Source of the DNA: Candidatus Aminicenantota bacterium
GTDB taxonomy: Bacteria > Acidobacteriota > Aminicenantia > Aminicenantales > UBA4085
Reading direction: 5' to 3'
Assembly (NCBI GenBank): GCA_026393865.1
Contig: JAPKZI010000228.1
Location: forward strand, 1 to 48,593
DNA length: 48,593 nt
Below the pieces are notes generated by a model. That model was not told the origin of the DNA and made no database searches. It saw only the letters and a program-made list of their open reading frames with translations. A program made the translations under genes and the position numbers. Positions 1-34,030 of the stretch are shown one piece after another (within the stretch, counting starts at the first letter, position 1; each line of letters opens with the position of its first letter).

Positions 1-190
1 TGGCCCTAAGGACCCCATAGCGGAGGGGGGCCCCATCGGCAAGGCCGATGGGGGGAACCGACGGGACTGGTTCCCCAGGGGGCCGTGGGCCACCCTGTCG
101 CCGAGTCGACCAAGAATTTCACCGCCGGAAAAGCCGAAATAAGCAGGCGTTAAGATTTCCGCCAGGGAGCGAGCTTCCGCCCCAAGCCCC
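1..190 (+). repeat. Structured intergenic repeat, copy 1 (family shared with 32817-32957, inverted)
   Basis: Reverse complement aligns to 32817-32957: shared CAGGGGGCCGNGGGCCACCCTGTCGCCGNGTCGAC and GCAGGCGTTAAGATTTCCG..AGGGAGCNAGCTTC. Hairpins include CCCCATCGGCaagGCCGATGGGG and GGGGAACC..GGTTCCCC. Confidence 0.7.
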
Positions 191-841
191 CTATTTGCCC
201 TGTTTGCCGATGGGAAAGATCTTGACCCGCTTTAAAAAGCCGTCACCAAGGCTTTCGCTGGTTATGCCGGGGACTTGGTTGACGGCGATATGAACGATCC
301 GTCGCTCGTAGGGATTCATGAGGTCCAAGATCTCGTTCCGGCCGGTGTCACAGACCTCCCGGGCGACATCCTGGGCGTATTCGCGAAGTCTTTTCTCTTT
401 TCTTTTGCGGAAAAACTCGCAGTCGACCTGAACTTTCTGATTGGAAACCTTGTTCAGGATATGCTGCAAGGCCAGGAGAAGTTCCCCGTCTTTCCAGAGG
501 AGGATTTGTTTGTCCTCCCCGTCGAAAACGACGAAGACGAAGTCGTTCTTCTTTTTGACCTGGTAGCTGAGGTCGAGAGGAAAGACCCGCAGCAGCTTCT
601 GGAGGAAATCGGCCACGGCGTTCTCTTCGGCTTCGATTTTGGGCCAGACGCGGATGACGATTTCTTTGCTGAGCCCGAACAGCTTCGTCTTTTCGGTGAC
701 AATCTCGTAATTGAACTCCGAGCGGAGAATCTTCAGCTTGTGCTCGGCGTGGCCGATGGCCTCCTCGAGATTTTTGCCTTTGAACTCCTTGAGTTCTTCG
801 GCTCCGGGCTCATTTTTTTCTTGGTTTTCCATTGGATTCAA
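191..841 (-). CDS. jag: Jag/KhpB RNA-binding protein (Jag_N, KH, R3H)
   Basis: Jag_N-like N-terminus (KGKNLEEAIGHAEHKL), C-terminal R3H-like segment, adjacent to yidC. Confidence 0.9.
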   Translation of the reverse strand: MNPMENQEKNEPGAEELKEFKGKNLEEAIGHAEHKLKILRSEFNYEIVTEKTKLFGLSKEIVIRVWPKIEAEENAVADFLQKLLRVFPLDLSYQVKKKNDFVFVVFDGEDKQILLWKDGELLLALQHILNKVSNQKVQVDCEFFRKRKEKRLREYAQDVAREVCDTGRNEILDLMNPYERRIVHIAVNQVPGITSESLGDGFLKRVKIFPIGKQGK

Positions 842-3762: not shown

Positions 3763-3925
3763 CGAAGTCAAGGGACGAGCCTTCGGCTCGCCACTCGCCC
3801 GTGGCTTGTACCCACGGGCGAGTACGGCGGAAGTGGACCCCCGGGCAATGCCCGGGGCACTCACCCGCGATGTAAATGCGCGGCTGAGTACGGCGGAAGC
3901 GGATCCCCAGACAAAGCCTGGGGCC
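3763..3925 (+). repeat. Tandem hairpin repeat element, two diverged units
   Basis: ACTCG..CGAGT and ACTCA..TGAGT stems, each followed by ACGGCGGAAGYGGA and a CCCC..GGGG hairpin; inverted homologous copy at 33893-33993. Confidence 0.75.
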
Positions 3926-4064
3926 CCTGCCGCCGCCCCGGCCGCCGAGGAAGGGGAGAGAGCCGAATTTCAATCCTCGCCTTCCTATCCAGGCGACGGA
4001 CAGGCCGCAATGACCGCGGGTCTAAGATCTCCGCCGGTCGCTAGTTTATTTCCGGTGCTTCTTG

Positions 4065-32742: not shown

Positions 32743-32816
32743 GTGTCTCCGTCTCCTTTCGGGAATTGGCTTGAGCATATATCGTCCCTTTTTAGATGTC
32801 AAATAGGCTCGGTGAA

Positions 32817-32957
32817 GAAGCTTGCTCCCTACGGAAATCTTAACGCCTGCACGTTTCGTTTTTTCGGCGGCCGATACTAACAGTCGACGCGGCGACAGGG
32901 TGGCCCCCGGCCCCCTGCCGCCGCGTCCTTAAATCCTCCACCGAAAAAACCGAAACG
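32817..32957 (-). repeat. Structured intergenic repeat, copy 2 (relative to 1-190)
   Basis: Same family as 1-190; arms GTTTCGTTTTTTCGGCGG / CCACCGAAAAAACCGAAAC and CGCGGCGACAGGGTGGCC / GGCCCCCTGCCGCCGCG. Confidence 0.7.
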
Positions 32958-33005
32958 TAGCGGCGAGATCTCCTTAAAGTCGCCACACCTTCTTCCCCTC
33001 GCCAC

Positions 33006-33540
33006 GGCTAAAGGAAAAAAGTGTCACGACATTAGTGAAATGTTTTGTTTTTAGCCCTTGATGAGCGAAGAAGCGGGCGGCTGCTCTATTTACGGATTGA
33101 AGCGAACGACAAGATCGGGAGACGGCTGAAGCGACCATGGAGGGTTCAGCCTTTCCGAGCCGTCCTTCGAGGGAAGCCGGCCCGGAAAGGAGGCCGGCCG
33201 GCGAAGCATGTTTGAGCTTCCCGGCGCACTCCCGTAAGAACTTGATGAAATTTAAATTCCGGAGACGCTTTTAGGACTTTGAAATATATCATCTCCCCTT
33301 CCTCTCTTGTAGCCAAGAGGGGCCCCGAAAAAGGTAATCGTCTCCGGTAGAGGAGGCGAGTACTGAGCCGCCGAGAAGGACGGTGAGGAAATGGCGTCAA
33401 GAACCCGAGTCGGGAGCTAGGCCGTTTCCCGATCTTGTCACCAGGACCCGCGACGAGAAGAGCGTTTGGCCGCTTCGAGCGAGCCTCTTTCCCGAGCGAG
33501 TTTTTCAAAGGAATCCGGGGGAGGGCGGTCTAACGAAGTG
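33006..33540 (+). ncRNA. Candidate structured RNA or long 5' leader of unknown class
   Basis: No convincing CDS; 19-bp long-range stem 33108-33126/33421-33439 with a G-U pair; nested hairpins 33006-33056, 33151-33189, 33197-33225, 33259-33347, 33301-33322. Confidence 0.5.
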
Positions 33541-33634
33541 AGAGGAAAGAATGAAAACACGAAACGGCTGGAACCTTTTTCAGGGTTCCACCGTATATAT
33601 GTTTGAAGACGATAATTATGAAAGGATAACGAAT

Positions 33635-33808
33635 ATGAGACTCAAAGAAAAGATCGGGATCTTCCTCGCCGCCGCCTTGCTGACGCTCATCGGGTTCAGC
33701 TTTATGGCCGCGCCGACCGTCGACATGATGAAGATCGGAAAGCTGGCCGGTTATGAGATGATCGCCAACTACCTGGCGAAGGCCGATAGCGTCGCCCCCC
33801 ATTCCTGA
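33635..33808 (+). CDS. Small single-TM protein (57 aa)
   Basis: MRLKEKIGIFLAAALLTLIGFSFMAAPTVDMMKIGKLAGYEMIANYLAKADSVAPHS; AAAGGA about 8 nt upstream of the ATG. Confidence 0.5.
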   Translation: MRLKEKIGIFLAAALLTLIGFSFMAAPTVDMMKIGKLAGYEMIANYLAKADSVAPHS

Positions 33809-33892
33809 AGGAAGGATGGTGCGCGTGACCCGAGGAACGACCGACTCCCCCCTTCTTCCCATTCCCGGAAGGCTGCCGTTTCTTTCCACGGC

Positions 33893-33993
33893 GGCCGGGG
33901 CCCCGGGCTTTACCCGGGGGTCAGCTTCCGCCGTACTCGCCCGTGGAAATAAGCAACGGGCGAGTGGCGAGCCGAAGGCTCGTCCCTTGACAG
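33893..33993 (-). repeat. Hairpin repeat element, inverted copy of 3763-3860
   Basis: Reverse complement TCAAGGGACGAGCCTTCGGCTCGCCACTCGCCCGTT..ACGGGCGAGTACGGCGGAAGCTGACCCCCGGGTAAAGCCCGGGG matches 3767-3857. Confidence 0.8.
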
Positions 33994-34030
33994 GATCGAG
34001 CGGCGGCCTTTTTTTATGCCTTTTTCCCGC

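Follow-up and report, generated by a model that had tools for sequence, protein, structure and literature searches.

A composite repeat unit in an Aminicenantes genome

We examined a 48,593-nt stretch of DNA (hereafter referred to as the window; contig JAPKZI010000228.1, positions 1 to 48,593, of assembly GCA_026393865.1, a MAG of 3.23 Mb and 86% completeness) from Candidatus Aminicenantota bacterium, and found two members of a dispersed repeat family lying back to back, a type I member on the + strand and a diverged type II member on the - strand (Table 1). The full unit runs from about 32806 to 33497 (about 690 bp), and such a unit recurs in the genus at about 660-750 bp. The type II member matches the same covariance model as the type I core and folds alike. 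The left end of the unit abuts a promoter-like site of the upstream peptidase gene, and many copies in this genus end a few bases from a TTGAC box.

Table 1 Features of the composite unit and neighbouring sequence in the window
Position	Strand	Feature	Remarks
33108-33439	+	Type I core with closing stem P1 (33108-33127/33420-33439)	Model R1 match at 33120-33431, 159.8 bits, E 2.1e-43
33142-33156	+	5' sides of conserved helices P3 (33142-33147 with 33401-33406) and P4 (33149-33156 with 33387-33395)	Double changes in 19 of 34 sequences at the first P3 pair
33159-33168	+	5' side of conserved helix P5, pairing with 33375-33384	Nine of eleven pairs of this helix show double changes
33238-33351 (about)	+	Variable loop insert holding the hairpins CCGGAGACG/CGTCTCCGG and CCTCTCTTG/CAAGAGGGG	Absent from or replaced in most copies
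33070-33087	+	Outer arm GAAGCGGGCGGCTGCTCT	Paired in related copies with 33459-33476
33459-33476	+	Outer arm AGAGCGTTTGGCCGCTTC	
32806-33004	-	Type II (diverged) member with its own closing stem	Model R1 match at 32811-32994, 19.8 bits, E 2.5e-6 (filters off), 8.1e-5 (window-wide)
32806-32822	+	Left end of the composite unit, GGCTCGGTGAAGAAGCT	Imperfect inverted repeat with the right end
33482-33497	+	Right end of the composite unit, AGCCTCTTTCCCGAGC	Inverted to the left end; no target duplication recognised
32776-32803	-	Promoter-like site, TTGACA-N16-TATATG	
33551-33808	+	Small ORF, 85 or 58 aa depending on start (33551/33635)	DNA 93% identical in the sister species
76-197		Further partial type II copy at the edge of the window	About 79% identical to 32800-32917, opposite strand
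33877-33995, 3767-3858, 3886-3935		Second palindromic repeat of about 110 nt	

An earlier sequence-only reading had described this region as a candidate undescribed structured RNA, favouring the + strand, without a convincing ORF, closed by a 19-bp stem, and this observation was confirmed. The arm GACAAGATCGGGAGACGGC (33108-33126) pairs with GCCGTTTCCCGATCTTGTC (33421-33439) over 19 nt (95% complementary, 294 nt apart), and the minimum free energy fold extends the stem to 20 bp. RNA folding of 33103-33444 gave -163.6 kcal/mol against -119.5 +/- 5.3 for dinucleotide shuffles (z = -8.4; 0 of 100 as good). Of the local hairpins proposed at the same time, the complementarities 33197-33207/33216-33225, 33259-33267/33339-33347 and 33301-33309/33314-33322 exist, but the last two lie in the loop insert that most copies lack, and the hairpin 33151-33157/33183-33189 competes with the conserved fold, in which 33152-33156 pairs with 33387-33391. 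No conserved ORF was detected, as copies differ by indels that are not multiples of three.

Covariation and strand preference of the predicted fold

We next aligned 34 copies of the core, which supported 36 base pairs. Standard pairs made up 95.8% of cells and 22 pairs showed double changes, whereas none of 500 shuffles reached any of the five measures and sliding the partners by 1-3 columns dropped pairing to 35-54%. The core comprises a roughly 20-bp closing stem of variable sequence, several nested helices, and strongly conserved motifs outside the modelled pairs, namely AGCGAC after P1, GAGGGAA, TGTTTGAGC, GAGTT, GTTAAAAA, and GGGAGCGA before the 3' side of P1. Between the two conserved blocks is a variable loop of up to about 120 nt that accepts whole further hairpin modules. 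Over 61 dereplicated copies, we counted 146 G-U/U-G cells against 28 A-C/C-A cells (P = 2e-20; cells share ancestry, so this P value is too small). The fold is therefore kept on the + strand, as RNA or single-stranded DNA, between which the strand bias cannot discriminate; the strand preference previously inferred from wobble pairs was right and is now supported much more strongly.

These data also bear on the possibility of a purely DNA-level palindromic repeat, in which the helices would be by-products of inverted repeats kept complementary by template-switch (quasipalindrome) correction, with no selected RNA. The elements are palindromic throughout, terminal repeats included, their perfect long arms of changing sequence are what such correction would give, and no transcript is known. 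However, correction is strand-symmetric, in contrast to the excess of G-U over A-C, and the conserved unpaired motifs would need another cause. Among recent copies in one related genome (G063, see below), unique changed pair states were 12 G-U against 2 A-C (P = 0.013), whereas unpaired sites showed no such direction (3 against 7). This hints at continuing selection on the fold, although the direct contrast is only borderline (Fisher P = 0.057). We thus consider the DNA-level explanation unlikely.

Distribution of the core and searches for known RNA families

A blastn search of the window's own genome with 32900-33800 gave 73 matches, and the core was further found in other genera, mostly at 70-80% identity. 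A covariance model (R1) hit 58 of 142 genomes of the class, all 58 among the 94 genomes of the same order and none among the 48 genomes of other orders, while a spread sample of the phylum gave 12 of 396, again all in the order. Model searches score a limited number of candidates per genome, so copy counts are lower bounds. An exact-pattern scan of the named species genomes gave 36 stretches, all from Candidatus Aminicenantes, and viral contigs held no copy. Searches of Rfam 15 at gathering and E-value thresholds (E up to 5 or 10) with the window and ten distant copies returned no match, including to OLE, HEARO, or group I and II introns.

We then asked whether the core could be a retron, group II-like, or IscB/HEARO-type RNA of a retro- or RNA-guided element, scattered without its protein gene. 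A closing stem of variable sequence followed by AGCGA recalls the a1/a2 repeats and branching-G motif of retrons, which is no more than a lead, and one stretch (L032; sequence stretches are designated L) lacks the 5' part of the core. This copy lies within an open frame (L032:2052-2250), as if the element had given a protein gene a new end. RVT_1 was absent from the window's genome (G000), its sister species (G001), and the single-contig genomes G059 and G060, each of the latter with at least 15 copies, which argues against retron or group II relations. The RRXRR domain (PF14239) of IscB-type proteins was found in 0 of 142 genomes, in a search in which no control genome gave a hit either. Together with the absence of an Rfam match and the terminal repeats with 8-bp duplications described below, which point to a DDE transposase, these results make this origin very improbable.

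Genomic context

In 74 copies with readable flanks, neighbouring genes occurred in all four orientations (24/21/18/11; simple ORF picking, so approximate), with elements mostly in intergenic gaps. A leader or terminator role for one gene is thus unlikely. The sequence-only interpretation was partly supported: an undescribed structured RNA on the + strand is supported by the strong covariation and the lack of an Rfam match, but a stand-alone single-locus ncRNA, or an elaborate OLE-like 5' leader of the small membrane protein encoded by the ORF downstream, is not supported and is contradicted by the dispersal and the unfixed gene orientation; the lack of an Rfam match also speaks against it. That ORF follows on the same strand and may be a real gene in view of its conservation in the sister species, but no link to the repeat was found. 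Moreover, many copies in this genus lie upstream of a promoter-like site rather than within the downstream transcript (read by eye). The likeness to OLE is only that both are large and near a membrane-protein ORF.

Terminal repeats, target duplications, and site turnover

In relatives, the core sits inside ORF-less elements of about 266-380 bp in most lineages, within terminal inverted repeats that differ between lineages. For one class of ends, GGTTCTCTTCCATATTGTGTGGG, ISL3-family transposase genes in genomes G047, G035, and G042 sit in 1328-bp insertion sequences with the same ends (GGTTCTCTTCCAT(A/T)TTGTGTGGG), which in G047 and G035 show perfect 8-bp duplications. Core elements with these ends in G004, G005, G011, G030, and G071 have mostly 8/8 or 7/8 target duplications. 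In G063, which has the same ends, twelve copies are exactly 268 bp and 89-99% identical (mean 94%), with duplications of 8/8 in seven and at least 7/8 in ten; each carries the core at 147-160 bits, whereas the insertion sequences are filled by the transposase gene and carry no core. Derivatives with the same ends but little or no core also exist (L234, L235), and an ORF-bearing (autonomous) version of the core was not found among the copies retrieved. In contrast, the window's own genus has different ends, no ISL3 transposase match (PF01610) in G000 or G001, and no recognised target duplication, so for this copy the transposon reading rests on homology of the core, on dispersal, and on empty sites. 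Y1_Tnp was present in 115 of 142 genomes and so is not discriminating.

Comparison of G000 with G001 revealed a core-containing insertion (L010) that is absent from the orthologous site, and other sites where the core is missing or replaced by another hairpin. At L027, comparison with G001 showed the right arm without core and left arm, as would fit an inverted duplication of the target as the origin of P1, but deletion explains it equally. Some insertions are shared by the two sister species (L012/L064, L013/L175), and this, together with the promoter-like sites that many copies abut, might suggest a host-adopted small RNA or cis-element kept in place as an insulator, terminator, mRNA stability element, or sRNA; Coxiella MITEs yield sRNAs (PMC5896051) and Yersinia ERIC affects mRNA stability (PMC2229807). 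However, orientation to neighbours is not fixed, sites turn over between sister species, and the terminal repeats, duplications, and recent burst are explained by transposition alone, making host adoption unlikely.

A predicted structured RNA carried by probable miniature transposons

Taken together, we consider it probable (about 0.82) that the region is a copy of an apparently undescribed family of non-autonomous, ORF-less DNA transposons (MITEs), found in the order of uncultured Aminicenantes bacteria that contains this genome, whose interior is a conserved structured RNA. Our analysis establishes the multicopy dispersal, the terminal inverted repeats and 8-bp target duplications in relatives, the identity of one class of ends with those of resident ISL3-family insertion sequences, the recent amplification in a relative, and the covariation and strand-specific pairing. 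It remains an inference that an ISL3-type transposase (in other lineages perhaps another DDE-type) moves the element in trans, that the + strand is transcribed and folds, and that the fold and its unpaired motifs are kept because the RNA does something specific that favours the element's persistence, most likely binding a protein or acting as a ribozyme, rather than serving as a leader of one host gene. The conserved unpaired motifs suggest specific recognition or catalysis rather than mere stability. In this view, the window copy is an old composite of two members, for which no transposase was identified.

The nearest precedents are bacterial MITEs with structured transcripts, such as ERIC, Correia/NEMIS, CIR, and YPAL (reviewed in PMC2229807), which are likewise small, ORF-less, intergenic, and multicopy, with terminal inverted repeats and transcripts predicted to be highly paired, and of which CIR folds are described as phylogenetically conserved. 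Those are stem-loops about 100-200 bp long, whereas here a multi-helix core with conserved unpaired motifs is shared by elements with different terminal repeats across an order, and some copies nest further modules. ISL3-family insertion sequences and their MITEs share terminal repeats and 8-bp duplications with one class of copies, but other lineages carry the core with other ends. QMITE1 and QMITE2 of Coxiella (PMC5896051) are MITEs of a few hundred bp with about 50 copies that give rise to structured sRNAs, but are restricted to one species, with no order-wide covarying core reported in the text consulted. Repeated conserved RNA motifs of Borrelia plasmids (PMC2674063) are also intergenic with compensatory base changes, but are plasmid stem-loops, some linked to lipoprotein genes, and are not shown here to share sequence or mode of movement. 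OLE, HEARO, retron, and group II RNAs are large structured RNAs, some in mobile elements, but the core has no Rfam match and several carriers lack a reverse transcriptase. No paper linking Aminicenantes with MITEs or structured RNAs in a relevant way was found in the library searched, which excluded subscription-only literature.

MITE interiors are usually seen as leftovers of a transposase gene or as plain palindromes, and bacterial miniature transposons are not known to carry a multi-helix RNA core that persists while the transposon ends change. Here the interior is the best-conserved part, is folded on one strand only (as RNA or single-stranded DNA), and outlives changes of the terminal repeats, whether because the core was captured repeatedly by different transposons or because the ends simply diverged. 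This raises the testable question of whether a transposable element gains from an RNA of its own without coding for protein. A more speculative and, on present evidence, unlikely possibility is that the core is itself the selfish unit, an RNA (ribozyme or RNP RNA) that passes from one transposon vehicle to another, so that different terminal repeats and transposases carry the same RNA through an order of bacteria. Our data also supply a covariance model and about a hundred aligned copies for a large RNA absent from Rfam, and may explain some assembly breaks in Aminicenantes MAGs, where copies often lie at contig ends.

Other hairpin modules were associated with the family. The second palindromic repeat in Table 1 was found nested inside family members in L028, L031, and L036, and in L028 and L036 the junctions suggest a 3-bp GAC/GTC duplication. 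In G001, a mini hairpin with the same AAGCGA/GAGCGA pattern next to its stem occupies the place of the core (L180, about 520-620), as if modules inside the outer arms were exchangeable. Other REP-like hairpins (GGGGACATGT.../...CGTGTCCCC and GATAATTCGCAGACACATACC...) sit at sites where G000 carries the core (L173, L177, L178).
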